A program made the translations under genes and the position numbers. A DNA stretch of 45,474 bases from an uncultured Oscillospiraceae bacterium (lineage in GTDB: Bacteria > Bacillota > Clostridia > Oscillospirales > Oscillospiraceae). How positions within the stretch are numbered: position 1 is the first letter of the stretch; every line of letters starts with the position of its first letter. Positions 7,957 through 39,558 of the stretch are shown here, piece after piece. The stretch spans positions 1-45,474 of the forward strand of contig CANQCS010000014.1 in assembly GCA_947589745.1 (NCBI GenBank), written 5' to 3'. The notes beneath the pieces are model-generated. The model searched no databases, was not told the origin of the DNA, and saw nothing but the letters and a program-made list of their open reading frames with translations.

Positions 7957-8594
7957 GTGGGGGCTCCGCCCCCAACAGGGCTGATTGGCACCCCCAGGCG
8001 GGGTGCGCCCCTGGGTTACTTTTCCCTTGCAGGAAAAGTAACCAAAAGTGCACTCAAGAAAACCAGGAATGGTTTTCTTGAGAATCTTTCCTTATTTTTT
8101 TGTTTAGTTTTGCGCTCCCCCTGTGGTTGGTTTTGTCTAAACTGTTCTTGCTCCCGTGTATGGGGCGAAGCGGCTATTTCAGTATGTCCCCCAAGGAGAT
8201 CCTTCTGCGGCGCAAGTTTCGCCGCTTGGGGCGGCGAAACCGGACATTGGGTGTGCTGGTCGTTTTTACGTATTCCGACTGCGTCCTGCTCCGTTCCACT
8301 ACGCACAGGACAGATTTCCGTATACGGCCCGAATAGAACCGCGCCCTCAATTGCGTAGTGGAACGGAGCAACCGGCAGTAAGACTAAGGAAAAACAAAAC
8401 AGCAGTACCGATGAAAGCTTTCTCTGGCCTCTAGTTCCACCATCCATCTGCCCTTAACAAAAATTAGTTAGAGGTCCAGCCCTACGGGCTGGCGCCCTTT
8501 TGGGTACTTTTCCCGCGTGGGAAAAGTACCCCAGGGTGCCGGCAGGCACTGAAAGATAGAATAAGAGGTGGTAGGGGCCGGAGGCCCCTACTGA
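7957..8594 (+). repeat. Composite intergenic repeat, copy 1 (full, variants E1/H1)
   Basis: Fills the gap between the radical SAM gene and mutY. Parts in order: GC hairpin (GGGGGCTCCGCCCCC); hairpin B (GGTTACTTTTCC / GGAAAAGTAACC, 8014-8043); hairpin C (CTCAAGAAAACC / GGTTTTCTTGAG, 8053-8082) followed by a T-rich run; a conserved spacer with a GTTTCGCCGC / GCGGCGAAAC hairpin (type E1); core inverted repeat (arms 8287-8305 and 8352-8370, 46 bp apart); right arm with a GGGTACTTTTCCC / GGGAAAAGTACCC hairpin (type H1) and GGGGCCGGAGGCCCC. The right end stops about 24 bases before the mutY ribosome site. No gene seen. Confidence 0.9.
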
Positions 8595-8632
8595 TTAGCA
8601 CCAAATTGTTATGTAGGAAAAGGAGCCCCCCT

Positions 8633-9688
8633 GTGACCGAAAACCAAGATCTTCTCTATTCCATACCAGTCCCCCTGTTGGACTGGTATAATATCCACAA
8701 ACGAGTTCTCCCCTGGCGCGGGACCAGGGACCCCTATCAGGTCTGGGTGTCGGAGATCATGCTCCAGCAGACCCGCGTGGCGGCGGTAATGTCATATTAC
8801 CTCCGCTGGATGGAGGAACTCCCCACCGTGGCGGACCTGGCGGCAGTAAATGAGGAAAAGCTGATGAAGCTCTGGCAGGGCCTGGGCTACTACAGCCGGG
8901 CCCGGAACCTGCGCCGCGCCGCCCAAGCGATCATGGCCGATTTCGGCGGCGTCTTCCCGGACCGCTGGGAGGATATCCTGACCCTTCCCGGCGTGGGCGA
9001 CTACACCGCCGGGGCCGTCGCCTCCATCGCCTTCGGCCAGCCCGTCCCGGCGGTGGACGGCAACGTGCTGCGGGTGGCGGCCCGGGTGGCCGGGATCAGC
9101 GGCAACATCCTGGACCCGGCCGTCCGAAAGGACATCCGCGCCCGCATATCCGCCGCCATGCCCCCGGACCGCCCCGGCGAGTTCAACCAGGCCCTCATGG
9201 ACCTGGGGGCCACGGTCTGCCTGCCAAACGGCGCGCCCCTGTGCGAAGACTGCCCCCTCGCCCCTCTCTGCGAGGCCAACCGCCTCCACCTCCAGGACAA
9301 GCTGCCCGTCCGCGAAAAAAAGAAATCCCGCCGGGTCGAGGACCTGACTGTCTACCTCCTGCTCCGCGACGGGACCGTCGCCCTCCGCAAGCGCCCGGAC
9401 ACCGGCCTGCTGGCCGGGCTGTGGGAGTTCCCCCACACACCGGGCGCCCTCGCCGAGGACGCCGCGGGCTCCGCGGTAACGGCCTGGGGCCTGACGCCCC
9501 TGGACTGGCAAAAAAAGCTGACCGCCCGCCATGTGTTCACTCACGTGGAGTGGCACATGACCGGCTACGTGCTGTCCGTGCGGGGCGAGAACCGGGACCT
9601 CTTCTGGGCAAACCGGGCGGAGCTGGAGCAGCTGGCGGTCCCCAGCGCGTTCAAAAAATTTCTGGAAGAGGCCAAGGCCCTGCTCTGA
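8633..9688 (+). CDS. mutY: A/G-specific adenine DNA glycosylase
   Basis: MutY removes adenine mispaired with 8-oxoguanine. With a GTG start the protein has 351 residues. E41 in SEIMLQQT and D142 in VDGNV are the family's catalytic residues, and LPGVGDYTAGAV (118-129) is the helix-hairpin-helix. The [4Fe-4S] ligands are C196, C204, C207, C213, spaced CX7CX2CX5C, one residue longer in the first gap than in many MutY proteins. The C-terminal third (about 230-350) is the NUDIX-like 8-oxoG recognition domain. GTG at 8633 is chosen because AAAAGGAG lies 7-8 bases upstream. No promoter is visible between repeat copy 1 and the gene, so transcription must start in the repeat or read through it. Confidence 0.93.
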   Translation: MTENQDLLYSIPVPLLDWYNIHKRVLPWRGTRDPYQVWVSEIMLQQTRVAAVMSYYLRWMEELPTVADLAAVNEEKLMKLWQGLGYYSRARNLRRAAQAIMADFGGVFPDRWEDILTLPGVGDYTAGAVASIAFGQPVPAVDGNVLRVAARVAGISGNILDPAVRKDIRARISAAMPPDRPGEFNQALMDLGATVCLPNGAPLCEDCPLAPLCEANRLHLQDKLPVREKKKSRRVEDLTVYLLLRDGTVALRKRPDTGLLAGLWEFPHTPGALAEDAAGSAVTAWGLTPLDWQKKLTARHVFTHVEWHMTGYVLSVRGENRDLFWANRAELEQLAVPSAFKKFLEEAKALL

Positions 9689-9689
9689 C

Positions 9690-9740
9690 CCCCATTCCCT
9701 GTCCCGCACGGGACAGCGCGGCGGGGACTTTGGTTTTTTT
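9690..9740 (+). terminator. Probable terminator after mutY
   Basis: Nested stem around CTGTCCCG / CGGGACAG with outer CCCC / GGGG pairing, then a T7 run after a short gap. The T-run is displaced, so confidence is moderate. Confidence 0.55.
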
Positions 9741-9791
9741 CGTCAATCTTATGCCGCCGCCTTCCGCAGATTTCAAAAATTTCTCCTTTCT

Positions 9792-9835
9792 TGTTACAAA
9801 ATTGTAAAGCTTTTTTGAATTTAACGTGGTACACT
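9792..9835 (+). promoter_or_regulatory. WalR-like direct repeat plus -10 box upstream of the VanW gene
   Basis: TGTTAC (9792-9797), 5 bases, TGTAAA (9803-9808) fits the published WalR/YycF consensus TGTWAH-N5-TGTWAH exactly. A -10-like TACACT sits at 9830-9835 with no good -35, as expected for an activated promoter. The same segment contains TTACAA-AA-TTGTAA, a short palindrome, so another regulator is possible. Confidence 0.45.
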
Positions 9836-12874: not shown

Positions 12875-13490
12875 CAGGGGCCTCCGGCCCCTGGGAGGGA
12901 CTGGTAGGGACCTGCCGGTCCCTGCACACCCTGGGTTACTTTTTGTGCAAACAAAAAGTAACCAAAAAGTTGCTTAAGGGGCTGCGCCCCTTAAGAATCC
13001 TCGGGGATAACGGTTAAGGACACTTTCCCGGTAGGAAGTACCCAGAGAAAGCTTTCATCGGTACTGCCTCCTTGTTTTTCCGTAGTCCAACTGCTGGTTG
13101 CTCCGTTCCACTACGCAATTGATGGCGCAGTTCTATACGGGCCGTAAACGGAAATCTGTCCTGTGCGTAGTGGAACGGAGCAGGACGCAGTCGGACAACG
13201 TCAAAACGACCAACGCACCCAATGAGCCCCTGCACCAGCGCTTCTATCTCCTTGAGGACATTCTCACCCTAGCCGCAAAATCTCATACACGGACCCCGGC
13301 CCGGTTTAGACCAAACCAGCCACAGGGCGAGCGCAAAACTAAACAAAAAAATAAGGAAAGATTCTCAAGAAAACCATTCCTGGTTTTCTTGAGCGCGCTT
13401 TTGGTTACTTTTCTCGCGAGAGAAAAGTAACCAGGGGCCGCACCCCGCCTGGGGGTGCCTATCAGCCCTGGTGGGGGCGGAGCCCCCACG
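12875..13490 (-). repeat. Composite intergenic repeat, copy 2 (full, variants E2/H2, minus)
   Basis: Lies between the thrS 3' end and the DUF1540 gene in the same orientation as those genes. The H2 right end comes first on the plus strand: CAGGGGCCTCCGGCCCCTG, then the GGTTACTTTTT / AAAAAGTAACC hairpin and CTTAAGGGGC / GCCCCTTAAG. Core arms are 13099-13117 and 13164-13182, 46 bp apart. The spacer is type E2. The left-arm hairpins (CTCAAGAAAACC stem and GGTTACTTTTCTC / GAGAAAAGTAACC) follow, and GTGGGGGCGGAGCCCCCAC closes it. Confidence 0.9.
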
Positions 13491-16589: not shown

Positions 16590-17489
16590 ATGAAAAAACT
16601 GACGCTCTCCGCAGTCCTGGCCGCGGGACTTCTTCTGCTGCTCCGGCCCGAGACCGTGTCCGCCGCCGTCCGTGATGGCCTGTCCCTCTGCGGTCGGACG
16701 GTGATCCCGTCCCTGTTCCCCTTTTTCGTGGTCACGTCCCTGCTGCTCCAGCTGGGCCTGGCGGACGGCCTCCAGGGCCTCTGCGCCCCCTTCATGGGTC
16801 CTCTGTTCCGCCTCCGTGGCGTCTGCGCGATGCCGCTGCTGGCGGGGCTGGTGGGCGGCTACCCCTCCGGGGCCAGAACGGCGGTAGAGCTGTACCAGCA
16901 GGGCCGCCTCAGCCGCCAGGAGGCGGAGCTGCTTCTGGGCTTCTGCGACAACTGCGGCCCGGCGTTTCTGCTGGGCTACGTGGGCGTCACCGTCCTGGAC
17001 AGCGCCCGCGCCGGCCTCTGGCTGTATCTTATCCACGTGTCCGCGGCGCTGACCACGGGGCTGATCCTCTGCCGGCTCGTGAAGGACCGGGGCCCCGCCC
17101 TGCTGCCCAGCCGCCTCCCGGCGAAAACAGTCTCCTTTGCCCAGGCGCTGACCAGCTCTGTCTCCTCCGCCCTGACGTCCTCCCTGAACATCTGCGCATT
17201 CGTGGTAGCCTTCGCCGTCCTGACGGCGCTGCTGCCCACGGGGCTGCCTCCGGCGGTGTCCGGCGTCCTGGAGATGGTCAGCGGCACGGCCGGCCTGGCC
17301 CCAGGCCGGGCGGGGTTCATCGCGGCTGCCGCCATCGTGGGCTGGGGCGGCCTGTCGGTCCACTGTCAGGCGCTGTCCGCCGCCGCCCCGGCGGAGGTCA
17401 GCTTTCGCTGGCACTGGACCGGGAAAGCCCTCCAGGCGGGGATATCGGCCGCCGTGGCGGCCGTGGCTGCGGGGATGATATATCCGTAG
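16590..17489 (+). CDS. Short YlbJ-like sporulation/nucleoside-recognition membrane protein
   Basis: A 299-residue polytopic protein with about eight hydrophobic segments. The block VIPSLFPFFVVTSLLLQLGL...LAGLVGGYPSGARTAVELYQQGRLS...LLGFCDNCGPAFLLGYVG is characteristic of YlbJ and the Gate (nucleoside-recognition) domain family. B. subtilis YlbJ has about 400 residues and is needed for spore formation; this form is about 100 shorter. The start is uncertain: ATG at 16590 has only a weak GGGTG upstream, and the frame is open 39 bases further. No operon partner is present, and repeat copy 3 begins 16 bases after the stop. Confidence 0.75.
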   Translation: MKKLTLSAVLAAGLLLLLRPETVSAAVRDGLSLCGRTVIPSLFPFFVVTSLLLQLGLADGLQGLCAPFMGPLFRLRGVCAMPLLAGLVGGYPSGARTAVELYQQGRLSRQEAELLLGFCDNCGPAFLLGYVGVTVLDSARAGLWLYLIHVSAALTTGLILCRLVKDRGPALLPSRLPAKTVSFAQALTSSVSSALTSSLNICAFVVAFAVLTALLPTGLPPAVSGVLEMVSGTAGLAPGRAGFIAAAAIVGWGGLSVHCQALSAAAPAEVSFRWHWTGKALQAGISAAVAAVAAGMIYP

Positions 17490-17505
17490 TCGGCGGACAG
17501 GCTGA

Positions 17506-18132
17506 TGGGGGCTCCGCCCCCACCGGGTCTGATTCGCCCCCCAGTGGGGCGCACCCTGGGGTTACTTTTCCCTTGCAGGAAAAGTAACCAAAAGTGCACT
17601 CAAGAAAACCAGGAATGGTTTTCTTGAGAATCTTTCCTTAATTTTTTGTTTTGTTTTTGCGCTCCCCCTTTGGCTGGTTTGGTCTAAACCGAACTGGGTC
17701 CCGTGTATGAGGCGCTGCGGCTACAGTGAGTATGTCCCCAAGGAGAGTGAAGCGCTGGTGCAGGGACTCATTGGGTGCGTTGGTCGTTTTTGTGCTTGAC
17801 CGACTGCTGGTTGCTCCGTTCCACTACGCACAGGACAGATTCCCGTATACGGACTCGACAAGAAACATCCATCAATTGCGTAGTGGAACGGAGCAACCAG
17901 CAGTAAGAATACGGCAAAACAAACCAGCACCCCCGATGAAAGCTTTCCCTGACCCCTAGTTCCACCATCCATCTGCCCTTAACGCCCTTCCCCACGGAGG
18001 GGATTCTCAAGGGGGCCAAAGGCCCCCTTGAGCAATTTTTTGGTTACTTTTTGTTTGCACAAAAAGTAACCGAGGGTGTGCCTCCGGCACAAAAGGAAGA
18101 AAAAATCCTGGGTCAGGGGGCGGAGCCCCCTG
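17506..18132 (+). repeat. Composite intergenic repeat, copy 3 (full, variants E2/H2)
   Basis: Fills the gap between the YlbJ-like gene and pepF. Left hairpins match copies 1, 6 and 7. The spacer is type E2 (AAGCGCTGGTGCAGGGACTC). Core arms are 17812-17830 and 17877-17895, 46 bp apart. The right arm has the H2 hairpin GGTTACTTTTTG / CAAAAAGTAACC and closes with CAGGGGGCGGAGCCCCCTG. The left outer flank of the core carries CTGCTGGT, which elsewhere flanks the other side, a sign of exchange. No gene seen. Confidence 0.9.
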
Positions 18133-18159
18133 TACAACCCATCCAAATCGTGGTATAAT
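18131..18159 (+). promoter_or_regulatory. Promoter of pepF at the right edge of repeat copy 3
   Basis: TGTACA (18131-18136), 17-bp spacer, TATAAT (18154-18159). The -35 overlaps the last bases of the repeat. Confidence 0.6.
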
Positions 18160-18212
18160 CCTATCACATTCATAAGGTTATATTTTGATTTGGAATGGAG
18201 GATAGAAAATCA

Positions 18213-20015
18213 ATGTCCGTTGATGTGAAGATCATGAAGCGCTGTGAACAGGCTCCCGCCGACTGCTGGAGCGTGGAGGACCTCTTCCCCAGCGACGAGG
18301 CCTGGGAAAAGGCCCTGGAGGACTGCCAGGCCCTGCCGGCCCAGGTGTCCGCCTACCGGGGCCGCCTGGGCGGGTCCGCCCGCACCCTCCTGGAGTACCT
18401 GGACTGGAGCGAACAGGTGGACGCCCGTCTCAGCAATTTACATATCTACTCCATGCTCCGCCTGGACGAGGACACCGCCGACCCGGACCACCAGGCCATG
18501 CAGGGCCGCTGCCGCAGCTTTGCCGTCAAAATGTCCGCCGCCGCCGCCTTCGAGCGGCCGGAGCTCATCGCCATCCCCGACGAGACTTTGGAGCAGTTCT
18601 ATCGGGACGAGCCCGGCCTGGAGAAGTACCGCCGGTATCTGGCCCGCGTCCGGCGGGGCCGGGACCACGTGCTGTCCCAGGCTGAGGAGGACCTCTTGGC
18701 CGCCTCCGGACAGGTGGCCCATGGCCCCAGCGCCATCTTCAACACTTTCAACAACGCCGACCTGAAATTCCCCCCTGTCCCGGACAGCCAGGGCAGGGAG
18801 CACCCCCTGACCCACGCCTCCTACATCGTCCTCATGCACAGCACGGACCGCACCCTCCGGGAGAACGCCTTCAAGGCGTACTACCACGCCTACGGCGCCT
18901 ACCGCAACAGCCTGGCCGCCATGCTGGAATCCGAGATCCAGAAAAACGTCTTCTACGCCAGGGCCCGGGGCTATGACAGCGTCCTCCAGTCCGCCCTCTT
19001 CCCCTCCGAGATCCCCGAGGCGGTCTACCACAACCTCATTGAGGCCGTCCACCAGAACATGGACAAGCTGCACCGCTACATGGCCCTGCGGAAGAAGGTC
19101 ATGGGCCTGGACCGGCTCCACATGTACGACATCTACGCCCCCATGCTGCCGGAGGCGGACCAGGTCATCCCCTTCGCCCAGGCCAAGGAGTACGTCCTGG
19201 AGGCCACCAAGGTCATGGGCGGGGAGTACAGCCGGGTCATCGCCAGCGCCTTTGATCAGCGGTGGATGGACATTTACGAGAACGAGGGCAAGCGCTCCGG
19301 CGCCTACTCCTGCGGCTGCCGGGTCCACCCCTTCGTGCTCCTCAACCACACTGACGACCTGAAGAGCGCCTTCACCCTGGCCCACGAGCTGGGCCACGCC
19401 ATGCACTCCTATCTGAGCAACAAGAACCAGCCCCCGGTCTACGCCAGCTACGTCCTCTTTGTGGCCGAGGTGGCCTCCACCTGCAACGAGGCCCTGCTGA
19501 TGCAGTACCTCCTGGGCCAGACCACGGACAAGCGGCAGCGGGCGGTGCTCCTGAACCACTTCCTGGAGCAGTTCCGCTCCACCCTCTACCGCCAGACCAT
19601 GTTCGCGGAGTTCGAGCTGAAGACCCACGCCCTGGCCGAGCAGGGCGAGGCCCTCACCGCACAGAAGCTGTGTCAGGTCTACCACGACCTCAACAAGCTC
19701 TACTACGGCCCGGACGTGGTGTCCGACGACGAGATCGCCCTGGAGTGGTCCCGCATTCCCCACTTCTACCGCCGGTTCTACGTCTACCAGTACGCCACCG
19801 GCTTCTCCGCCGCCATGGCGCTGTCCCGCCGCATCCTCACCGGCGGCGAGGCGGCGGTGCAGGACTATCTGCGCTTCCTCTCCGGCGGCTGCTCCACCGA
19901 CCCAGTGTCCCTCCTGAAGATCGCCGGCGTGGACGTGAGCACCCCGGCCCCGGTGAATGATGCGCTCGCCCTCTTCGGCGAGCTCATCGGCGAGATGGAA
20001 ACGCTGTTGGCATAA
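18213..20015 (+). CDS. pepF: M3-family oligoendopeptidase F
   Basis: A cytosolic zinc metallopeptidase that cuts short peptides. With the start at 18213 the protein has 600 residues, normal for PepF. The zinc motif HELGH is at 391-395 (FTLAHELGHAMHSYL), with the third ligand expected in the following EVASTCNEALL helix. The N-terminal half matches the PepF lid domain (CWSVEDLFPSDEAWEKAL is the usual opening). ATG at 18213 is chosen because GGAGG lies about 9 bases upstream; an ATG at 18195 has no site. It has its own promoter and terminator and is a single-gene unit between repeat copies 3 and 4. Confidence 0.93.
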   Translation: MSVDVKIMKRCEQAPADCWSVEDLFPSDEAWEKALEDCQALPAQVSAYRGRLGGSARTLLEYLDWSEQVDARLSNLHIYSMLRLDEDTADPDHQAMQGRCRSFAVKMSAAAAFERPELIAIPDETLEQFYRDEPGLEKYRRYLARVRRGRDHVLSQAEEDLLAASGQVAHGPSAIFNTFNNADLKFPPVPDSQGREHPLTHASYIVLMHSTDRTLRENAFKAYYHAYGAYRNSLAAMLESEIQKNVFYARARGYDSVLQSALFPSEIPEAVYHNLIEAVHQNMDKLHRYMALRKKVMGLDRLHMYDIYAPMLPEADQVIPFAQAKEYVLEATKVMGGEYSRVIASAFDQRWMDIYENEGKRSGAYSCGCRVHPFVLLNHTDDLKSAFTLAHELGHAMHSYLSNKNQPPVYASYVLFVAEVASTCNEALLMQYLLGQTTDKRQRAVLLNHFLEQFRSTLYRQTMFAEFELKTHALAEQGEALTAQKLCQVYHDLNKLYYGPDVVSDDEIALEWSRIPHFYRRFYVYQYATGFSAAMALSRRILTGGEAAVQDYLRFLSGGCSTDPVSLLKIAGVDVSTPAPVNDALALFGELIGEMETLLA

Positions 20016-20018
20016 TTT

Positions 20019-20053
20019 AAGGCTGGTATGACTTCGGTCATACCAGCCTTTCT
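20019..20053 (+). terminator. Rho-independent terminator after pepF
   Basis: Perfect stem AAGGCTGGTATGAC / GTCATACCAGCCTT with a stable TTCG loop, then TCT. Repeat copy 4 begins about 10 bases later. Confidence 0.9.
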
Positions 20054-20063
20054 GCTCGAAGCG

Positions 20064-20678
20064 CAGGGGCCTCCGGCCCCTGGGTGGGTCCTGGTAGGGA
20101 CCTTCGGTCCCTGCTGACCCTGGGTTACTTTTTGTGCAAACAAAAAGTAACCAAAAAATTGCTTAAGGGGCTACGCCCCTTAAGAATCCCCGGGGATAAC
20201 GGTTAAGGACAGATGGATGTTGGGACTAGGGGCCAGGGAAAGCTTTCATCGATACTGCGTTTTTGTTTTTCCATATTCCTACTGCTGGTTGCTCCGTTCC
20301 ACTACGCAATTGATAGATGTTTCGTTTCGGACCGTATACGGAAATCTGTCTTTTGCGTAGTGGAACGGAGCAGAACGCAGTCGGACAACGTAAAAAACGA
20401 CCAACGCACCCAATGCGCCCCCGCCCCAGCGCTTCACTCCCCTTGGGGACATACTAAAACAGCCGCAACGCCCCCATACACGGGAGCAAGAACAGTTTAG
20501 ACCAAACCAACCAAAGGTGGAGCGCAAACCTAAACAAAAAATAAGGAAAGATTCTCAAGAAAACCATTCCTGGTTTTCTTGAGCACGCTTTTGCATACTT
20601 TTCCCGTGGGGGAAAAGTAGGCCAGGGCCGCACCCATCGGGGGTGCGCATCAGACCCCGTGGGGGCGGAGCCCCCACA
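20064..20678 (-). repeat. Composite intergenic repeat, copy 4 (full, variants E2/H2, minus)
   Basis: Lies between the convergent pepF and HAD genes. On the plus strand it opens with the H2 right end (CAGGGGCCTCCGGCCCCTG, GGTTACTTTTT hairpin, CTTAAGGGGC hairpin). Core arms are 20290-20308 and 20354-20372, 45 bp apart. A type E2 spacer and the left-arm hairpins follow; hairpin B is slightly mismatched here. It closes with GTGGGGGCGGAGCCCCCAC, 20 bases from the HAD stop. Confidence 0.9.
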
Positions 20679-20698
20679 CCCCCCGGTATGCCGGAGCA

Positions 20699-21382
20699 TC
20701 ACAGCACCCGGCATACCTCCTCCAGTCTTTCCACGATATGATCGGGCCCCGGCCGTGGCACGGCCGCGGTCCGATGAATGTCGAACCAGCAGGTCCTCAT
20801 TCCGTAGTCCGCCGCGCCGCGGATATCCGCCGTCATGGAGTCCCCGATCATCATGACCTCCTCCGGCCGCAGGGGCGCCAGCGCCTGAAAGCACACGTCA
20901 AAGAACGCCGCCGAAGGCTTCACCGCCCCTACCCGCTCCGAGATAAAAAGGTGGTCGAAGTACGCCAGCATCCCGGCGCTGTCCAGCCGCCGCACCTGCT
21001 GGCCGTAGGGCCCGTTGCTGGCGGCGGTCAGGATGTAGCCCCTGCCCTGCAGGTACCGCAGCAGGTCCAGCGCCCCCTCCACCGGCTCGGCGCTGAGATT
21101 TAAGTTGGCCTTGAACCGGTCCTCGAACACCCTGCCGTCGAAGTCCACGCCGTACTCCCGGAAGATGGCCTGCCAGCGAACGTCCCGCAGCCCCTCCACG
21201 GTGAGCTTTCCCGCCTCGATCTCCAGCCACAGCCCGTTGTTGATCCGCCGGAAAATGTCGTAGTAGTCCTCCGGAAACGCCAGGGAGAACTCCTTGGCCG
21301 CCTCCAGCATGGCGTACCGGGAACAGGCCCCAAAATCCAGCAGGGTGTCGTCGATATCCAGCATCACCGCTTTGACGCTCAT
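20699..21382 (-). CDS. HAD-family hydrolase, YjjG-like (probable nucleotidase)
   Basis: A 227-residue haloacid-dehalogenase-fold phosphatase. Motif I DIDDTL carries the nucleophile D9 and acid D11. Motif II is TAASNG, motif III the Lys in GAVKPSAAFF, motif IV MIGDSMTADIRGA. The helical cap lies between about 15 and 95. The layout resembles YjjG/pyrimidine 5'-nucleotidases, but the substrate is inferred only. ATG at 21382 follows GGAGGA and overlaps the upstream stop by 4 bases (ATGA), so translation is coupled with the radical SAM gene. Upstream frame extension has no site and is ignored. Confidence 0.85.
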   Translation of the reverse strand: MSVKAVMLDIDDTLLDFGACSRYAMLEAAKEFSLAFPEDYYDIFRRINNGLWLEIEAGKLTVEGLRDVRWQAIFREYGVDFDGRVFEDRFKANLNLSAEPVEGALDLLRYLQGRGYILTAASNGPYGQQVRRLDSAGMLAYFDHLFISERVGAVKPSAAFFDVCFQALAPLRPEEVMMIGDSMTADIRGAADYGMRTCWFDIHRTAAVPRPGPDHIVERLEEVCRVL

Positions 21383-22425: not shown

Positions 22426-22435
22426 CCCGTCCTCC

Positions 22436-24652: not shown

Positions 24653-24680
24653 GTCTCAAACGTGAAAGGGAGTAATCAGT

Positions 24681-25186: not shown

Positions 25187-25204
25187 CCCGCCATTTCGCC
25201 AAAA

Positions 25205-25248: not shown

Positions 25249-25296
25249 CCCGCCCCCGCCAATTTCCCCGGAAATCCCGCCAATCCATCCACCATA

Positions 25297-25665
25297 GTTT
25301 CGTGCCGTATACGGAGATCTGTCCTACGCGTAGTGGAACGGAGCAGACCGCAGCCGGACGAGCACCAAACGACCAGCGCACCCAATGTCCGGTTTCGCCG
25401 CCCCAAGCGGCGAAACTTGCGCCGCAGCAGGATCTCCTTGGGGACATACTCACCGTAGACGCAGAATCCCATACACGGACCCCGGTCCGGTTTAGACCAA
25501 ACCAGCCAAAGGTGGAGCGCAAACCAAAAAATGAGGAAAGATTTTTAAGAAAACCTCGGTTTTCTTAAACGCGCTTTTGGTGACTTTTCCCGCGGGGGAA
25601 AAGTCACCGGGGGTACGCAGGGACCGGAGGTCCCTACCAGGACCCGCCCGGGGGTGGAGCCCCCA
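25297..25665 (-). repeat. Composite intergenic repeat, copy 5 (truncated, E1)
   Basis: Only the left arm and part of the core remain. It begins inside the core (GTTTCGTGCCGTATACGG) and holds one core arm (25327-25345, first base changed). It continues through the type E1 spacer with the GTTTCGCCGC hairpin, then stem C (TTTAAGAAAACC / GGTTTTCTTAAA) and hairpin B (GGTGACTTTTCC / GGAAAAGTCACC), to a GC hairpin. The right arm is missing. It points its left end toward zapA, unlike the other copies. Confidence 0.88.
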
Positions 25666-25696
25666 GAAATTTCTCGAGAGCTTCTCATAATTCCGA

Positions 25697-28233: not shown

Positions 28234-28260
28234 ATATCATATGCCCTCCGGACTGGGGGT

Positions 28261-28895
28261 GTGGGGGCTCCGCCCCCACCGGGGCTGATAGGCACCCTAG
28301 GGGTGCCTGCCATCCCCTGGTTACTTTTCCCTTGCAGGAAAAGTAACCAAAAGTGCACTCAAGAAAACCAGGAATGGTTTTCTTGAGAATCTTTCCTTAT
28401 TTTTTGTTTAGTTTTGCGCTCCCCCTGTGGCTGGTCTGGCCTAAACCGGGCTTGCTCCCGTGTAGTGGGGCGAAGCGTCTGTTTCAGAGCTTTCCCAAGG
28501 AGATCCTTCTGCGGCGCAAGTTTCGCCGCTTGGGGCGGCGAAACCGGACATTGGCTGCGCTGGTCGTTTTGTGCTTGTCCGACTGCGTCCTGCTCCGTTC
28601 CACTACGCACAGGACAGATTTCCGTTTACGGACTCGACAAGAAACATCCATCAATTGCGTAGTGGAACGGAGCAACCAGCAGTAAAAATACGGAAAAACC
28701 AACACAGCAGTACCGATGAATGCTTTCTCTGAGTTCTACCCTACACCTATCTGCCCTTAACAAAAATTAGTCAGAGGTCCAGCCCTACGGGCTGGCGCCC
28801 TTTTGGGTACTTTTCCCGCGTGGGAAAAGTACCCCAGGGTGCTCATAGGCACTGAAAAAATATAAAGAGGTGGTAGGGGCCGGAGGCCCCTACTG
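28261..28895 (+). repeat. Composite intergenic repeat, copy 6 (full, variants E1/H1)
   Basis: Fills the gap between the U32 gene and dut. Nearly the same as copies 1 and 7: left GC hairpin, hairpin B, hairpin C, type E1 spacer. Core arms are 28591-28609 and 28656-28674, 46 bp apart. The right arm has the GGGTACTTTTCCC hairpin and GGGGCCGGAGGCCCC. A further hairpin (TGGGGCTGCCGCCCCCA) runs to about 28925, leaving no room for a promoter before dut. Confidence 0.9.
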
Positions 28896-28947
28896 ATATG
28901 CATTGTGGGGCTGCCGCCCCCCACCCCCCTGCAGGAGGTCCTATCCC

Positions 28948-30857: not shown

Positions 30858-30868
30858 TCCTTTTTCTT

Positions 30869-30975
30869 GGTACTTTTTCTTGAAAGAAAAAGTACCCAAA
30901 AAGAACTTTACCATCGCTCTCAAGGCGCTGCGATACCCACATTCCCGCACGGTAACGAGATATACTTCTCATAGT
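30869..30975 (+). repeat. Second repeat family, copy a (between mreC and mreD)
   Basis: About 105 bp. It opens with a hairpin GGTACTTTTTCTT / AAGAAAAAGTACC, then CAAAAAGAACTTTACC, and ends with CTGCGATAC and CCGCACGGTAACGAG. The same elements in the same order and strand occur at 44155-44262. It fills the whole gap between mreC and the ribosome site of mreD. No gene seen. Confidence 0.85.
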
Positions 30976-30999
30976 AACATTGTCCAAGGGGGCGTTTCC

Positions 31000-31523: not shown

Positions 31524-33749
31524 ATGGAGGACGAAAAACTCTTTTTTCGCAGGTCCAATATCCTTCTCGGGATATTTCTCCTCTGTCTGGCCTGCTTCGC
31601 GGCCATTCTCTACAACGCCCAAATCGTCAATCAGTCCACCTACCTGGCCCAGTCCACCACCCAGGTGACCACCACCGAGACGGTGGAGACCTCCCGGGGC
31701 ATCCTGACGGACCGCAACGGCAAGGTCCTGGTGTCCAACCAGCAGATCTACTCCGTCACCTTCGACCCCTCCCTGGTCCCCAATCCCAAGGACTCCGGCA
31801 TTTCCAATGACCGGGCGGTGGCCCTGGCGCTGCTGCGCCTGCTGCGCCTCTGCCAGGAGCAGGGCGTCACCTGGACGGACAATCTTCCCGTGACCGCCCA
31901 GGCCCCCTACACCTACACCATCTCCCAGGTCAGCGACACCCAGCGCTCCCGGTTCCAGAAGTTTCTGACCCAGATGGGCTGGTCCGACACGGAGCTGACG
32001 GCCAACACGCTCCAGCCCCTCATGTCCCGCTCTCTCCGGAACGACCTGGGCCTGGAGGCAACGGCCCTGAGCTGCAAGGCCCTGCTGGAGCAGATGCGCA
32101 AGGTCTTTGACCTGCCCGACACCTTCGCGGACCAGGAGGTCCGCCTGGTCTCCGGCGTCCTCTACGAGCTGCGCCTGCGCACCCTGAAGACCAACCCGGT
32201 GACGGAGCTCTACGTCTTTGCCCACGATGTCTCCCCGGAGTTCATCTCCCTGCTCAACGACGGCAATTTCTCCGGCGCGGTGGTCTCCAGCGAGTCCGTG
32301 CGCCTCTACAACACCGACTACGCCGCCCACATCCTGGGCCGCGTGGGCCCCATCTACGACAAGGAGGAGCGGGCCGCCCTCAACGCGCCCTACACCGCCG
32401 CCAAGGAGGCCGGTGAGAGCACCGACGGCATCCGCTGGTACTACATGGACGACAAGGTGGGCAAGTCCGGCGTGGAGAAGGCCTTTGAGACCTACCTGGC
32501 GGGCCTGGACGGCACCAAGCTCATCACCACGGACCAGTCCGGCAAGAAGACCAGCGAGCTCTACTCCATCGAGCCCCAGCCCGGCGGCACTGTGGCCCTG
32601 ACCATCGACATCGACTTCCAGGCCCAGGTGGAGGCCGCGCTGGCCAACGCGGTCCAGCAGATGAACGCGGCCAACGCCGCCGAGAGCGAGGACGGCACCG
32701 TGGACAACACCCGCGGCGGCGGCGCGGCGGTGGTCAGCGTGGCGGACAGCAGCATCCTGGCCCTGGCCACCTACCCCACCTACAGCCAGCGGACCTACGA
32801 GGAGGACCTGCCCATCCTGAACACCACCCCCGGCGGTCCCTTTGTGAACCGTGCCATTTCCGGCACCTACGCCCCCGGCTCCACCTTCAAGCCCATGATG
32901 GCGGTAGCGGCCCTGGAGGAGGGCGCCCTGTCCTCCCCCACGGAGAAAATCCGGGTCCCCGGCTACTGGACCTACCCGGAGATGATCGCTGGCTCCAAGC
33001 CTTTCACCGTCTACTGCTCGAGCCGTGTGGACCACGGCCGCCTCAACGTCTCCCAGGCCATCACCGAGTCCTGCAACGTCTTTTTCTACGAGATGGGCTA
33101 CCGCCTGGGTATCGAGACCATGAACCGCTACGCCCGGGCCTTTGGCCTGGGGGAGCCCACGGGCATTGAGATTGAGGAGAAGACGGGCATCCTGGCCGGT
33201 CCCGAGGAGCGGGAGGCCAAGGGTGAGATCTGGTACGGCGGCGACACGGTCCAGGCGGCCATCGGCCAGTCCGATAACCTGTTCACCCCCCTCCAGCTGG
33301 CCAACTACATTGCCACCCTTCTCCGTGGCGGCGACCGCCTGGACGCCCACCTTCTGGACACCGTCACCAGCTATGACGGCAGCGAGACGATCTTCACTCA
33401 CGAGCCGAAGGTCCTCTCCTCCATTGAGATCTCCGACTCCACCCTGGAGGCGGTCAAGAAGGGCATGGGCAACCTGGTGACCAGCGGCAGCGTGGCAAAA
33501 TACTTTAAAGACTGTACCGTCTCCGCCGGCGCCAAGACCGGTTCCATCCAGTTGGGCAACGACATGACCAACGGCGCGTTTGTATGCTTTGCTCCCTTCG
33601 AGAACCCGGAGATCGCCGTCGCAATCGTCATCGAACGGGGCGGCAGCGGTGCAGCCCTGGCGTCCACTGCCGTGGAGATTTTGAATTGTTACTTTGCGGA
33701 AAGTGACATTGGCACCGTGTTTGTGCCCGAAGGGCAGCTGCTGCCTTAA
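31524..33749 (+). CDS. mrdA: Penicillin-binding protein 2 (class B transpeptidase)
   Basis: A 741-residue cell-elongation transpeptidase. One membrane helix lies near the N-terminus (about 12-34). The dimerisation/pedestal region (about 55-330) starts with ETSRGILTDRNGKVL. The transpeptidase domain has all three motifs: S453-T-F-K (GSTFKP), S516-C-N, and K671-T-G. It crosslinks side-wall peptidoglycan together with RodA and MreC/D. It is longer than E. coli PBP2 (633). ATG follows AAAGGAGA. Last gene of the operon; no terminator of its own, as repeat copy 7 begins 7 bases after the stop. Confidence 0.94.
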   Translation: MEDEKLFFRRSNILLGIFLLCLACFAAILYNAQIVNQSTYLAQSTTQVTTTETVETSRGILTDRNGKVLVSNQQIYSVTFDPSLVPNPKDSGISNDRAVALALLRLLRLCQEQGVTWTDNLPVTAQAPYTYTISQVSDTQRSRFQKFLTQMGWSDTELTANTLQPLMSRSLRNDLGLEATALSCKALLEQMRKVFDLPDTFADQEVRLVSGVLYELRLRTLKTNPVTELYVFAHDVSPEFISLLNDGNFSGAVVSSESVRLYNTDYAAHILGRVGPIYDKEERAALNAPYTAAKEAGESTDGIRWYYMDDKVGKSGVEKAFETYLAGLDGTKLITTDQSGKKTSELYSIEPQPGGTVALTIDIDFQAQVEAALANAVQQMNAANAAESEDGTVDNTRGGGAAVVSVADSSILALATYPTYSQRTYEEDLPILNTTPGGPFVNRAISGTYAPGSTFKPMMAVAALEEGALSSPTEKIRVPGYWTYPEMIAGSKPFTVYCSSRVDHGRLNVSQAITESCNVFFYEMGYRLGIETMNRYARAFGLGEPTGIEIEEKTGILAGPEEREAKGEIWYGGDTVQAAIGQSDNLFTPLQLANYIATLLRGGDRLDAHLLDTVTSYDGSETIFTHEPKVLSSIEISDSTLEAVKKGMGNLVTSGSVAKYFKDCTVSAGAKTGSIQLGNDMTNGAFVCFAPFENPEIAVAIVIERGGSGAALASTAVEILNCYFAESDIGTVFVPEGQLLP

Positions 33750-33756
33750 AATCCTG

Positions 33757-34386
33757 ATGGGGGCTCCGCCCCCACCGGGTTTGATCTGCACCCCCGATGG
33801 GTGCACCCCTGGGTTACTTTTCCCTTGCAGGAAAAGTAACCAAAAGTGCACTCAAGAAAACCAGGAATGGTTTTCTTGAGAATCTTTCCTTAATTTTTTG
33901 TTTTGTTTTGCGCTCGCCCTTTGGCTGGTTTGGTCTAAACCGAACCGGGTCCCGTGTATAGGGGCGAAGCGTCTGTTTCAGTATGTCCCCAAGGAGATCC
34001 TGCTGCGGCGCAAGTTTCGCCGCTTGGGGCGGCGAAACCGGTACATTGGCTGCGCTGGTCGTTTTGACGTTGTCCGCCTGCGTTCTGCTCCGTTCCACTA
34101 CGCACAGGACAGATTTCCGTTTACGGCCCGATACGAAACATTCATCAATTGCGTAGTAGAACGGAGCAACCAGCAGTAAGACTACGGAAAACCAAACCAG
34201 CACCCCCGATGAATGCTTTCCCTGGCCCCTACCCAACACCCATCTGCCCTTAACAAAAAATGTTAGAGGTCCAGCCCTACGGGCTGGCGCCCTTTTGGGT
34301 ACTTTTCCCGCGTGGGAAAAGTACCCCGGGGTGCCCATAGGCACTGAAAGATAATATAAGAGGTGGTAGGGGCCGGAGGCCCCTAC
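33757..34386 (+). repeat. Composite intergenic repeat, copy 7 (full, variants E1/H1)
   Basis: Begins 7 bases after the PBP2 stop. Order of parts as in copies 1 and 6. Core arms are 34086-34104 and 34150-34168 (one mismatch, GTAGTAGAAC), 45 bp apart. The right end GGGGCCGGAGGCCCC is followed by another GTGGGGGCTCCGCCCCC hairpin to about 34415. The GH13 ribosome site starts about 30 bases later. No gene seen. Confidence 0.9.
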
Positions 34387-34460
34387 AGATTGGCACTGTG
34401 GGGGCTCCGCCCCCCTGACCCCCCTGGAGTCCCTACCAACCAAAAAGGAGACCTGTTTTT

Positions 34461-36326
34461 ATGATCTTCAATCCCCGTGACCAAAAATATAAGACCCCCT
34501 ACGGTGCTGTCCCCTGTGGGACAGATATCACTTTGACGCTCCGTCCCAGTGTGGAGGAACGTTTCACATCTTGTATTCTAGTCCTTTATGAGGAATTTTC
34601 CGACACCCGCCATGAAATACCCCTTTCCCCCGCCGGCGAGGAGGACGGCTGCGCCCTCTTCACCTGTACGTATGCGGCGCCGGAGGCGCCGGACCTTCTT
34701 TGGCTCTGCTTCCGCTTTCAGCGGGACAGCGGAGAAACCGTCTGGCTGGGCAAAAACGGCTTCTGCGGCGAGGGCCAGTCCGTCTGCTGGCAGCAGACCG
34801 TCTACGACGCCTCCACCTCCCATCCCGACTGGTTCGGCCGGGGCGTGACATACCAAATTTTTCCAGACCGTTTCTGCCGCCTCTCTATCCCCGATCCCAC
34901 CGGGATGCTGGGCGACCGGGTGGTACACCAGAACTGGCGGGAGCTGATGGAGTATCTGCCGGACGCCCAGGGCGAGATCCGCAACCGGGACTTCTACGGC
35001 GGCAGTTTGCGGGGCATTGAGTCAAAACTGGACTACTTACAGCGCCTGGGTGTCACCACCATCTACCTGAACCCCATCTTTGAGTCCGAGAGCAACCACC
35101 GCTACAACACCGGCAACTACAAGAAGATCGACCCCATGCTGGGGACCGAGGACGATCTGCGCAGCCTCTGCGCCAAGGCCAAGGAACTGGGGATGCACGT
35201 GATGCTGGACGGCGTCTTCAACCACACGGCGGACAACAGCCTCTACTTCAACGCCAAGGGTGCCTACCCCACCCTGGGCGCGGCCCAGAGCAAGGACAGC
35301 CCTTACTACCCCTGGTACGACTTCCAGGACTGGCCCAAGCGCTACAGCAGCTGGTGGGGCATCACCACCATGCCCGCCGTCAACGAGTGGCACCCGGACT
35401 ACATCGACTACATTATCGAGGGCCAGGACTCCGTCATCCGCCGCTGGCTCCGCTGCGGAGCGGACGCCTGGCGTCTGGACGTGGCGGACGAACTCCCCGA
35501 CAGCTTTATCGCCTCTATCCGCCGGGTCATGTTGGAGGAAAAGCCGGACAGCTTCCTCCTGGGCGAGGTCTGGGAGGACGGCAGCAATAAGATCGCGTAC
35601 AGCCAGCGCCGGAAGTATCTCCTGGGTCACGAGACTGACGGCCTGATGAACTACCCCTTCCGGGTCAGCGCTCTGGACTACCTTCGCGGCGGGGACGCCG
35701 CCAACTTCAAGGAGGCCATGGAGACTATCCGGGAGAACTATCCTCCCTTCGCTTTCTACAGCGGCATGAACATGCTGGGCACCCACGACAACCCCCGGGT
35801 CCTCACCATGCTGGGCACAGACCCCCAGGCAGTCCCCCCCACCCGCACGGAGCGGGCCAACTACCGCATGACCTCCGCGGAATACTACCGCGGCAGCCGC
35901 CTTCTCCAGACCGGGGCCATCCTGCTCTACGCTTTCCCCGGCTCCCCCACCGTCTACTACGGCGACGAGGTGGGCATGGAGGGCTTTGAGGACCCCTTCA
36001 ACCGGGGCACGTTTCCCTGGGGTGAAGAGGACTCGACGATTCAGAAACGCTTTATTCGCCTCGGCAAGCTGCGGAACACCCGCCGGTCCCTCCAGCAGGG
36101 GACGCTGCGCTGGCTCTACGCCCAGGGACACGGCCTGGCGTTTGCCCGCGACTATGAGGGCGAGACCACTGTCGCCGCCATCAACGTGGGCGACGGGGCC
36201 CTGTCGCTGACCCTCCCCTGGCCGGGGGCCCTGGCCACGGATGCCCTGACCGGACAGCAGTTTTTGCCGCTCCACGGCTGGGTCACGCTGTCGCTGCCCC
36301 CCATGGATGGGGTGCTCCTCATCTGA
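34461..36326 (+). CDS. GH13 alpha-amylase family enzyme (neopullulanase/cyclomaltodextrinase-like)
   Basis: A 621-residue glycoside hydrolase without a signal peptide, so cytosolic. Residues about 1-120 form a beta-rich N-terminal domain like CBM34. The (beta/alpha)8 barrel begins near WFGRGVTYQIFPDRF. The four GH13 regions are present: DGVFNHT, WRLDVADE (nucleophile Asp about 339), LGEVWED (acid Glu about 369) and GTHDNPR (Asp about 443). An N-terminal domain plus YQIFPDRF are typical of cyclomaltodextrinase/neopullulanase/maltogenic amylase. It would degrade imported maltodextrins. ATG follows AAAAGGAGA. It is a lone gene between repeats, with no transporter nearby. Confidence 0.88.
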   Translation: MIFNPRDQKYKTPYGAVPCGTDITLTLRPSVEERFTSCILVLYEEFSDTRHEIPLSPAGEEDGCALFTCTYAAPEAPDLLWLCFRFQRDSGETVWLGKNGFCGEGQSVCWQQTVYDASTSHPDWFGRGVTYQIFPDRFCRLSIPDPTGMLGDRVVHQNWRELMEYLPDAQGEIRNRDFYGGSLRGIESKLDYLQRLGVTTIYLNPIFESESNHRYNTGNYKKIDPMLGTEDDLRSLCAKAKELGMHVMLDGVFNHTADNSLYFNAKGAYPTLGAAQSKDSPYYPWYDFQDWPKRYSSWWGITTMPAVNEWHPDYIDYIIEGQDSVIRRWLRCGADAWRLDVADELPDSFIASIRRVMLEEKPDSFLLGEVWEDGSNKIAYSQRRKYLLGHETDGLMNYPFRVSALDYLRGGDAANFKEAMETIRENYPPFAFYSGMNMLGTHDNPRVLTMLGTDPQAVPPTRTERANYRMTSAEYYRGSRLLQTGAILLYAFPGSPTVYYGDEVGMEGFEDPFNRGTFPWGEEDSTIQKRFIRLGKLRNTRRSLQQGTLRWLYAQGHGLAFARDYEGETTVAAINVGDGALSLTLPWPGALATDALTGQQFLPLHGWVTLSLPPMDGVLLI

Positions 36327-36334
36327 AAATTGAA

Positions 36335-36350
36335 TGTTTCACGTGAAACA
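36335..36350. promoter_or_regulatory. parS site (perfect)
   Basis: TGTTTCACGTGAAACA, the 16-bp palindrome bound by ParB/Spo0J in Firmicutes, 8 bases after the GH13 stop and just before repeat copy 8. Confidence 0.93.
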
Positions 36351-36363
36351 CTGGCTTTGCTTC

Positions 36364-37071
36364 GGCGGGGTGCTCCCCGCCGGGGCTTTTTTGCACCCTG
36401 ACGGTGCACCGCGCTGTGACTTTTCTCCCGTGAGAAAAGTCACCAAAAGCACGCTCAAGAAAACCAGGAATGGTTTTCTTGAGAATCTTTCCTTATTGTT
36501 TTGTTTATGTTTGCGCTCGCCCTGCAGTTGGTCTCGCCTAAACCGCGCCGGGTCCCGTGTATGAGGCGCTGCGGCTACTTAAATATGTTCTCAAGGAGTT
36601 TGAAGCGCTGGTGCAGGGGCTCATTGGGTGCGTTGGTCGGTTTGTCCGTTGACCTACTGCTGGTTGCTCCGTTCCACTACGCAATTGATACATGTTTCGT
36701 ATCGGACCGTAAACGGAAATCCCTCCTGTGCGTAGTGGAACGGAGCAGGACGCAGTCGGTCAACAAAAACGACCAGCGCACCCAATGTTCCGGTTTCGCC
36801 GCCCCAAGCGGCGAAACTTGCGCCGCAGCAGGATCTCCTTGGGGACATACTAGGGTAGCCGCTTCGCCCCTATACACGGGACCCGGCGCGGTTTAGGAAA
36901 AACAGATTACAGGGGGAGCGCAAACATAAACAAATAATGAGGAAAGATTTTTAAGAAAACCTCGGTTTTCTTAAATGCCCTTTTGGTTACTTTTCCGGCA
37001 AGGGAAAAGTAACCCAGGGGCGCACCCCACCCGGGGGTGCCTACTGACCTGGTGGGGGCCGGAGGCCCCCT
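36364..37071. repeat. Composite intergenic repeat, copy 8 (palindromic, two left arms)
   Basis: The first half (36364-36664) is a plus-oriented left arm with a type E2 spacer. The core follows (arms 36665-36683 and 36729-36747, 45 bp apart). The second half (36748-37071) is a left arm in reverse with a type E1 spacer, stem C as TTTAAGAAAACC, and a closing GC hairpin. There is no right arm, so the whole copy is a 700-bp imperfect palindrome. Further GC hairpins fill 37072-37160. No gene seen. Confidence 0.9.
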
Positions 37072-37169
37072 AGATGTTTCTCGGGGACGTCGAGTCCCCT
37101 CGAACCATTTGACAGTTGCGCCTGTGGCGCACCTGTCGTGGGGCCAGAGGCCCCCACACCCCCAGTCTG

Positions 37170-38065: not shown

Positions 38066-38084
38066 CAGAAAGGAGGCGAGCGCG

Positions 38085-38951
38085 TTGGCGCCAAAAGAAA
38101 AAGGCCTGGGAAAAGGTATCAATGCCCTCCTGGGCGACGATTTCTCCGCTGATTTCTCCGCACCCGCCTCTACCCTGCCTGTCTCCCAGATCGAGAGCTG
38201 CCGGAACCAGCCCAGGCACATTTTTGACCCGGAGAAGCTGGAGGAGCTGGCTGATTCCATCCGGCAGCACGGCATCATCCAACCCCTGACCGTCCGCCGG
38301 CTGAGCTCCGGGTACTATCAGATCATCGCCGGTGAGCGGCGGTGGCGGGCCGCCAAGCTGGCGGGACTCCAGGAGGTCCCCGCTGTAGTGATCGAGGCCG
38401 ACGACCGCAAGGCCATGGAGCTGGCCATGATCGAGAACCTCCAGCGGGAGGACCTGAACCCCATCGAGGAAGCCCAGGGATTTCGCTCCCTGGTTACCAA
38501 GTTCGGACTGACCCAGGAGCAGGCCGCCCAGCGGGTGGGAAAATCCCGCAGCGCGGTGTCCAACACCATGCGGCTACTTGAGCTGGAACAGCCGGTCCTG
38601 GACTTGGTGGAAAATGGGACCCTGTCAGCGGGCCATGCCAGAGCGCTGCTGCCGCTGTCCTCCGACCAGCGGCTGACGGCCGCAAAAGAGATCATTGACA
38701 AGTCGTTGAGCGTCCGGCAGACGGAACAGCTGGTGAAGCGCCTCCTGGACCGGAAGCCTGACAAAAAGGAGCCTCCCCCCTCCCCTGCCGTCAACTACGT
38801 GGCCGCGGCGGAGCGGGAGCTGTCGGCCCGGTTAGGCCGGGCCTGCCACATTGCCCAGGGCAAGAAAAAAGGCAAGGTGGAGATCGAGTATTACGGTGTG
38901 GACGATCTGAACGAGCTTCTGGAAGCTCTGGACAAGATCGGCACCTGGTAA
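38085..38951 (+). CDS. parB: ParB/Spo0J partition protein
   Basis: A 288-residue CTP-dependent DNA clamp. The N-terminal tail KGLGKGINALLGDD is the ParA-activating peptide. The ParB/Srx domain has GERRWRAAK (CTP-binding GERRxRA box) and the ENLQREDLNPIEEA stretch. The HTH (LTQEQAAQRVGKSRSAVSNTMRLLEL) reads parS. A C-terminal dimerisation domain follows after a Pro-rich linker. The start is TTG at 38085 with AAAGGAGG upstream. A parS site begins 3 bases after the stop. The Spo0J rather than Noc identity is inferred from linkage to parA. Confidence 0.95.
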   Translation: MAPKEKGLGKGINALLGDDFSADFSAPASTLPVSQIESCRNQPRHIFDPEKLEELADSIRQHGIIQPLTVRRLSSGYYQIIAGERRWRAAKLAGLQEVPAVVIEADDRKAMELAMIENLQREDLNPIEEAQGFRSLVTKFGLTQEQAAQRVGKSRSAVSNTMRLLELEQPVLDLVENGTLSAGHARALLPLSSDQRLTAAKEIIDKSLSVRQTEQLVKRLLDRKPDKKEPPPSPAVNYVAAAERELSARLGRACHIAQGKKKGKVEIEYYGVDDLNELLEALDKIGTW

Positions 38952-38953
38952 TA

Positions 38954-38969
38954 TGTTTCACGTGAAACA
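38954..38969. promoter_or_regulatory. parS site (perfect)
   Basis: TGTTTCACGTGAAACA, 3 bases after the parB stop and directly before repeat copy 9. Confidence 0.93.
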
Positions 38970-38977
38970 GGGCCTGT

Positions 38978-39558
38978 ATGCACCCTGCAGGTGCACCGCA
39001 GTGTGACTTTTTGCCCGTGCAAAAAGTCACCAAAAACACGCTTAAGAAAACCCTTTGGTTTTCTTAAGAATCTTTCCTTAATGTTTCGTTGAGTTTTGCG
39101 CTCCCCCTTTGGTCTGGCTTGTCTAAACCGTTCTTGCTTCCGTGTATAGGAGCGAAGCGACTGTTTCAGTATGTTCCCAAGGAATTTTAAGCGCTGGTGC
39201 AGGGGCTCATTGGGTGCGCTGGTCGTTTTTGTTGACCGACTGCGCTCTGCTCCGTTCCACTACGCAATTGACAAATGTTTCGTGACGCACCCGAATAGAA
39301 CCGCGCCATCAATTGCGTAGTGGAACGGAGCAACCAGCAGTAAGACTACGGCAAAACCAACACCGCAGTACCGATGAAAGCTTTCTCTGGCCACTAGTTC
39401 AACCACCCATCTGCCCTTAACCGTCCTCCCTGGGGATTCTTAAGGGGCCCCAGCCCCTTAAGCAATTTTTTGGTTACTTTTTGTTTGCACAAAAAGTAAC
39501 CCAGGGTCAGCCTGCACCCGCAGGGTGCAAAAAGCCATCCAGGGGCTGGAAGCCCCTT
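38978..39558 (+). repeat. Composite intergenic repeat, copy 9 (full, variants E2/H2)
   Basis: Lies between parS/parB and serS. Its stems differ most: hairpin B is GTGACTTTTTGC / GCAAAAAGTCAC and C is CTTAAGAAAACC / GGTTTTCTTAAG, with pairing kept. Core arms are 39248-39266 and 39314-39332, 47 bp apart. Both core halves are of the same type, so the inverted repeat extends to TGCGCAATTGA-like 24-bp arms. The right arm is H2. It ends 3-4 bases before the serS ribosome site. No gene seen. Confidence 0.88.

Follow-up and report, generated by a model that had tools for sequence, protein, structure and literature searches.

The DNA considered here is a stretch of 45,474 nucleotides (the window) from an uncultured Oscillospiraceae bacterium (contig CANQCS010000014.1 of assembly GCA_947589745.1), in which a composite intergenic repeat recurs nine times; on balance, the repeat is regarded as a family of non-autonomous, gene-carrying, foldback-like mobile DNA elements recognised by shape. 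Taken separately, the element is likely, judged from its sequence, to be mobile DNA, and recognition by folded shape is proposed more tentatively. The mobile reading follows from interspersed copies that behave as units, species-specific sites, inverted ends and passenger genes. A preliminary description of the window had offered a choice between a non-autonomous mobile element with folded ends and a repeated structured RNA; the former is retained, with copies that are interspersed, intergenic and present or absent at matching sites and that have covarying hairpin-pseudoknot ends, and the latter is disfavoured. That description had overlooked three features: the mirrored layout, the pseudoknot and the genes carried at the tip.

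Each element is 600-700 nt long and follows a mirrored plan, in which four hairpins (H1-H2-H3-H4) and an arm lead to a tip, and the same order then runs back to H1. H1 is the outer and H2 the second of two GC hairpins, H3 has the sequence GGTTACTTTT...AAAAGTAACC, and H4 occurs with several stem sequences that are unrelated to one another; the tip consists of two inverted 18-nt arms, GCTCCGTTCCACTACGCA / TGCGTAGTGGAACGGAGC, around 45-47 nt. This fixed order, already remarked on in the preliminary description, was read in the window copies, one of which (36364-37071) has two A-type arms; its predicted fold is one giant stem with side hairpins, and the inverted repeat around its H3 is 63 nt long. 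In the seven other full window copies the hairpin order is mirrored, but the sequence inversion within one copy is only partial, comprising 25-43 nt at H3 (five of the seven), 28-63 nt at the tip (all seven) and short outer pieces. The H1 boundary was set automatically and is misplaced in several copies, the hairpins outside H1 vary, and the outer limit of the element is uncertain.

All nine window copies reported earlier are present, one of them (25297-25665) as a half element, and the share of the window given there as about 12% comes to 11.9%. In the 4.05-Mb genome holding the window (G000), 425 sites matched the 18-nt tip-arm pattern with at most two mismatches, compared with a single site for the reversed pattern used as control, which excludes chance. 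In the main reading set of 14 G000 contigs (1,163,413 bases, window included), 77 stretches with 156 tip arms (at most three mismatches) accounted for 4.1% of the DNA; with about two arms per stretch, the 425 arm sites correspond to roughly 200 copies per genome, which bears out the hundreds expected earlier from the window. The density is very uneven, ranging from 0 to 37 arms per 100 kb along 24 G000 contigs; ten of these, read as a further set (372,284 bases), held nine stretches, and six of the ten had none. Modules were nearly confined to copies, with inside/outside counts of 119/3 for H1, 25/0 for H2, 111/3 for H3, 114/0 for the H4 variants and 127/0 for the tip arms, and the three outside H3 matches were part of another repeat; the composite therefore behaves as a single unit. 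Arms were assigned to types A and B by short markers, which makes the types approximate (the copy at 38970 was typed AA, and its right arm reads as B); among the 77 stretches, 53 combined one A with one B arm, four were AA, four were BB and 16 were unassigned.

At the ends of the element, a fold is kept although the letters vary. At stem positions -2, -3 and -4 of 132 H3 hairpins, the pair is TA, GC or CG, and it is intact in 131, 130 and 132 hairpins, respectively. The H3 loop pairs with the linker immediately 3' of the hairpin in a single fixed register, as in the hairpin and linker at 33813-33853 (plus strand), where a linker tetranucleotide pairs with the H3 loop to give a pseudoknot. Among 57 distinct ends, all four loop-linker pairs were formed in 40, by 14 different quartets, compared with 5.5 on average and 13 at most when loops and linkers were shuffled. 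The covariation score of the pseudoknot, obtained from 55 distinct ends of ten genomes, was 0.520 as against 0.181±0.019 after shuffling, a procedure that leaves relatedness among ends in place; none of 500 shuffles scored as high and slid registers reached at most 0.17. Only the pseudoknot was counted, since the outer stem had been selected for pairing. In 55 complete G000 elements, the three core pairs were Watson-Crick in cis at 109 of 110 ends, whereas loops matched the linker of the opposite end in only 6 of 110, and loops were identical at both ends in 3 of the 55. Since the ends conserve shape rather than sequence, and a copy has different quartets at its two ends, sequence-specific recognition by a partner is unlikely, whereas recognition of a folded end is plausible. 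In the tip arms of elements oriented alike, G·U (12) was no commoner than A·C (10) among 1,176 cells, which argues against a one-strand RNA, and the conserved fold is read as belonging to DNA, or to both strands equally.

Placement in the genome was distinctly intergenic. Based on gene calls from our own simple model, only 2 of the 77 element midpoints fell within genes as compared with 63.8 expected; gaps between convergent genes were enriched (23 of 67 gaps versus 91 of 578) and gaps between divergent genes depleted (5 of 67 versus 105 of 578). The elements have a GC content of 54.5%, compared with 63.3% for the sampled genome.

In addition to hairpins, some copies carry genes at the tip. 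The earlier statement that the repeat contains no gene holds for the window copies by our gene calls but fails for the family, in which tip genes were found in copies elsewhere. A script that inspects only the DNA between the tip arms found an insert in 7 of the 77 stretches, and three others, in which one tip is damaged, were found by eye; among 11 insert-bearing loci, the insert lies at the tip in ten. Insert GC is 43-58%, compared with 63.3% for the sample. GNAT acetyltransferases are carried at C3:5632-6105, C11:4719-5426 and C11:24021-24593; the last (also L157:4021-4593) scored 193.5 bits against a cut-off of 140 with NF043067, the aminoglycoside 6'-N-acetyltransferase AAC(6') model. Other cargo comprises an S-adenosylmethionine (SAM) methyltransferase with a DUF6199 protein in C2, an XRE/HTH_3 regulator with a DUF6809 protein in C7 (C7:86428-86978), and a YlcI/YnfO-type protein, also in C3, while the cargo at C7:71813, C3:97344 and C15:8199 gave no family match over cut-off. 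A Pfam scan of 11 cargo proteins revealed no transposase family. In PADLOC, the methyltransferase matched mad2 across the methyltransferase domain (E 3.5e-23), and the helix-turn-helix (HTH) protein gave weak matches to several control proteins. Two inserts without a clear gene share about 170 nt, which by eye recurs in two more elements, so this related non-coding tip insert occurs in four G000 elements (C7:28904, C11:41847, L234 and L235).

Cargo of one kind recurs between species. In G012, one of the sibling species compared here (G008, G011, G015 and G019 are others), two elements have HTH-type and DUF6809-like genes at their tips, and at a third locus such genes adjoin a half element (L221, L224 and L217); the G012 tip arms differ in sequence from those of G000. 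Of the three G012 DUF6809 matches, one exceeded the cut-off, and in the C16 element the HTH gene was identified by eye only. Pairs of an XRE-type regulator with a DUF6809-like gene were seen as tip cargo at these three G012 loci and, in G000, at C7:86428-86978 and L335. Within the genus, 22 of 25 genomes encode DUF6809, which was unnamed in the literature searched. It was considered as the core of the element but looks like a recurrent passenger, since L- and R-type H3 hairpins flanked only 3 of 30 DUF6809 loci, as against none of 30 control loci from a PBP2 search, and only one of the three has long inverted repeats around the gene.

The window represents an origin-proximal core region, and its gene names (PBP2, parA, parB and serS) are our reading of the proteins and of gene order. 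At the gap between PBP2 and the next gene, both genes were found in 18 of 20 fetched siblings, and in a scan 17 of the 18 had no H3 hairpin and a gap of about 140-400 nt; in G011 the gap is about 730 nt with a single hairpin. At the parB-serS site, both genes were present in 11 siblings with gaps of 46-276 nt, G015 having a single hairpin. Conversely, G008 has a paired element at a site where the gap in G000 is 12 nt. The closest sibling, G019, is without an element at the 7957 site, where its 179-nt gap carries a second, smaller repeat instead, and at the 12875 site, where 291 nt stand in its place. At the 28260 site G019 does have an element, by eye with the arm order opposite to that of G000, and the two may be either independent or rearranged. 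Delimitation of an exact empty site by the G019 comparison was abandoned, the intergenic DNA being too diverged. As a separate observation, G019 lacks, between matching flanks (C5:17971-18069), an 8.2-kb segment that in G000 has an element at each border (window 17437-25682), which suggests rearrangement between element copies.

Beyond these siblings, one copy served as a BLAST query, with the best nine candidates scored per genome. Within the genus, 21 of 24 further genomes were matched; in the remaining genera of the family none of 12 was, and in the remaining families of the order 1 of 23. Apart from G000 and G019, the matched parts were mostly short end-hairpin pieces. In G000 itself, the first pass of the search gave 274-279 candidates, of which 40 were scored in one run and nine in another; this too fits hundreds of copies. 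A search of relatives by covariance model, which the preliminary description had proposed, was carried out with H3 plus linker and found 17 of 157 genomes of the order, G000 included. In G000 each of the 42 scored candidates matched, and the same was true of four out of five genomes sampled from g19, a genus of another family, with eight matches in the fifth; several of the remaining genomes matched weakly (E near 1e-4). Nine of ten fetched g19 stretches were aligned and retain the order of the ends around a different interior, in either orientation, and in sibling species too the ends are kept and the interior differs. A strict end pattern, which matched only G000 among the 157 genomes, was discarded as too strict in view of the 17 found by the structure model. 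The tip pattern had no match in viral contigs, and single copies had none against plasmids or against phages. Among named genomes, the tip pattern gave at least 25 stretches; 13 of the matches listed were in one uncultured Oscillospiraceae metagenome-assembled genome, from a rabbit to judge by its name, and 12 were singles in unrelated taxa, taken for chance.

These features can be joined in a tentative mechanism. The ends would act as folded single-stranded DNA or as extruded cruciforms, so that the fold persists under sequence drift; an enzyme acting in trans might recognise the shape of the ends and move or copy the element, and the tip might receive or swap cargo. Such a mode of working would resemble, by analogy, the folded-DNA recognition of integron integrases and Y1 transposases. 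Capture of cargo at the tip is inferred from the inserts.

Several observations weigh against the favoured reading. In the DNA read, the elements could be linked to no transposase or recombinase, and no autonomous relative with these ends was noticed in the 1.16 Mb read, which is part of the genome. The closest two copies are 92.4% identical, so recent movement is not supported, although identical copies may be hidden by assembly. No target-site duplication was found at the uncertain H1 boundary (57 elements, 27 length and offset settings, one at 2.5 sd). Cargo is present in only about 10 of the 77 stretches, no capture event was observed, and an orthologous element with and without cargo matches on the left flank only. 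A third window site, delimited by parA and the gene at 34551, is uninformative: the gaps there measure 196-1,104 nt in 12 siblings, with five above 600 nt and one holding a single hairpin, which speaks neither for nor against mobility. Regarding enzymes, there were 27 matches to PF00589, and two of the 12 loci inspected adjoin elements; a tyrosine recombinase as autonomous partner was rejected, the two beside elements looking like housekeeping XerC/XerD in our reading. The IS91-type Y2 transposase (PF04986) gave no match, and the control genomes gave none either.

In layout, the element agrees with foldback elements, which have long structured inverted ends around a variable middle; the two-A and the sibling copies agree in sequence inversion as well, and mixed A/B copies are only partly inverted in sequence. 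The Foldback/Galileo elements of Drosophila differ in being eukaryotic and in having a P-superfamily transposase, and the abstract of the source names no fixed hairpin-pseudoknot end (PMC3573991).

The first alternative is a miniature inverted-repeat transposable element (MITE) moved by a DDE transposase, or an element like the Tn3-derived inverted-repeat miniature elements (TIMEs), with decayed target-site duplications, passengers between its ends and only incidental hairpins. Inverted ends, a non-coding interior, a preference for intergenic DNA and passenger genes are all MITE traits, and a 611-bp MITE is reported to have mobilised a gene (PMC10969869). Both kinds are described as being, like the present element, non-coding, intergenic and high in copy number, with passenger genes possible, and the low GC of the elements would also fit. 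Nevertheless, this explanation is unlikely. MITEs are typically shorter than 500 bp, whereas the eight full window copies measure 581-708 nt, in agreement with the earlier remark on size. MITE terminal inverted repeats span about 4-30 bp; here, the repeats around H3 within one copy reach 63 nt in the two-A copy, measure 25-43 nt in five of the seven full mixed copies, and are shorter or absent in the others. Direct repeats, expected in young MITEs, were not found at H1, where boundaries are uncertain and the copies are not young. Moreover, the element has several ordered hairpins per end, and its end letters vary under a constant fold, as the 14 loop-linker quartets and unrelated H4 sequences illustrate. 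The end modules are almost never outside elements in the 1.16 Mb, so no autonomous relative with these ends was seen in that part of the genome.

A repeated structured RNA, or a 3' untranslated region or terminator module kept for RNA function, is a rather improbable explanation. The strong predicted folds, the conserved covarying pseudoknot and the preference for convergent gaps would all suit it, but the lack of G·U excess and the species-specific positions do not. In the window, the Rfam comparison, likewise proposed in the preliminary description, gave 0 matches at gathering score (best sub-threshold E 0.1-0.14, at 33740-37110). Nor was there an orientation bias with respect to flanking genes in a hand tally of 48 A-to-B copies with both neighbours: 15 were flanked by (+,+), 18 by (+,-), 12 by (-,-) and 3 by (-,+) genes. 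An impression from the window, that copy orientation follows the strand of the upstream gene, vanished across the same 48 copies.

A passive structural repeat, resembling repetitive extragenic palindromic (REP) sequences or bacterial interspersed mosaic elements (BIMEs), with tips that are merely insertion hotspots, is very improbable. Its high copy number and intergenic hairpins are shared by the element, and an apparent insertion sequence, which has the ends AATGCGAATCAA/TTGATTCGCATT and contains a transposase-like gene, was seen by eye in the arm rather than the tip of one copy (C12:12595-14188). However, the ten tip inserts among the 11 loci and the lack of a transposase family match among the 11 cargo proteins scanned speak against it. 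REPs are 20-50-nt palindromes preceded by GTAG, and here GTAG starts H1 in some copies only. The hairpins of IS200/IS605 elements are recognised as folded single-stranded DNA, and tetranucleotide complementarity matters in them (PMC8266576). The present element differs from these and from REP/BIME in that its own tetranucleotide, 3' of the hairpin, pairs with its own loop, in that its two ends are inverted, and in that no Y1 transposase (PF01797) was found in the genome, while a control search was positive in 5 of 14 genomes.

Integron cassettes carry gene types similar to the cargo found here. A dispersed integron-like system, in which the tip arms would be attC sites at which an IntI-like integrase inserts single-gene cassettes, is the least probable explanation: single small foreign genes (three GNATs, one of the AAC(6') group, an XRE regulator and a methyltransferase) do lie at inverted-repeat sites of conserved shape, but none of 30 matches to the integrase model TIGR02249 in the genome exceeded the cut-off, the inserts occupy dispersed single sites with no arrays seen, and the cargo lies within a mirrored element rather than beside a site.

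For the foldback-like mobile element, there is a real chance that it is an undescribed non-autonomous kind and constitutes a new class. A fuller version of this idea is speculative: the class would consist of dispersed mirror elements recognised by a hairpin-pseudoknot shape, the tip serving as an exchangeable dock for single genes, with about 200 docks per genome, a structure-specific enzyme and related ends in at least two families of the order. By analogy, it might be likened to a scattered counterpart of the integron, in which loop and linker co-evolve while the end sequences drift, a comparison just as doubtful. No description of the element was found in the literature searched, which took in few subscription papers; the element makes up about 4% of the sampled DNA of this gut bacterium and 12% of the window. 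If mobile, it could be a route by which single genes, such as AAC(6')-group acetyltransferases and regulators, spread among gut relatives. Furthermore, a DNA shape kept by covariation without wobble excess would offer a direct test case for folded-DNA recombination beyond integrons and IS200/IS605.

Within the window, the full copies on the plus strand are located at 7957-8594 (A arm to B arm; H3 at 8015-8042 and 8503-8530, tip arms at 8288-8305 and 8352-8369), 17505-18132 (H3 17561-17588 and 18043-18070, tip arms 17813-17830 and 17877-17894), 28260-28896 (H3 28320-28347 and 28806-28833, tip arms 28592-28609 and 28656-28673), 33757-34389, between PBP2 and the next gene (H3 33813-33840 and 34298-34325, tip arms 34087-34104 and 34150-34167), and 38970-39558, between parB and serS (H3 39003-39030 and 39473-39500, tip arms 39249-39266 and 39314-39331). 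The minus strand holds the full copies at 12875-13490 (H3 12935-12962 and 13404-13431, tip arms 13100-13117 and 13164-13181) and 20064-20678 (H3 20124-20151 and 20594-20621, tip arms 20291-20308 and 20354-20371), together with the half element at 25297-25665, which has outer hairpins, an A arm and one tip arm (25327-25344) and stops at the tip. The palindromic two-A copy at 36364-37071, to which no strand is assigned, has H3 at 36416-36443 and 36986-37013 and tip arms at 36666-36683 and 36729-36746.

The second interspersed repeat mentioned above is about 125-150 nt long (TGATACTTTTTCTTGAAAGAAAAAGTATCAAAAAGAACTTTA...) and is present in the window at about 30866-30995 and from 44153. It has 77 copies in the 1.16 Mb of G000, several of which begin at a stop codon, and it occurs in most contigs, including C18 and C19, where no element arms were found. 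The G019 copy lies at L298 2632-2520 on the minus strand, and the repeat at 30866 is absent from the matching G019 site. The hairpin loop and linker look complementary by eye, and the second repeat may be a small relative of the element. Two G000 contigs, C13 (GC 0.497) and C23 (GC 0.475), had neither repeat in the parts read and differ in tetranucleotide use; they may be plasmid, prophage or contaminant.

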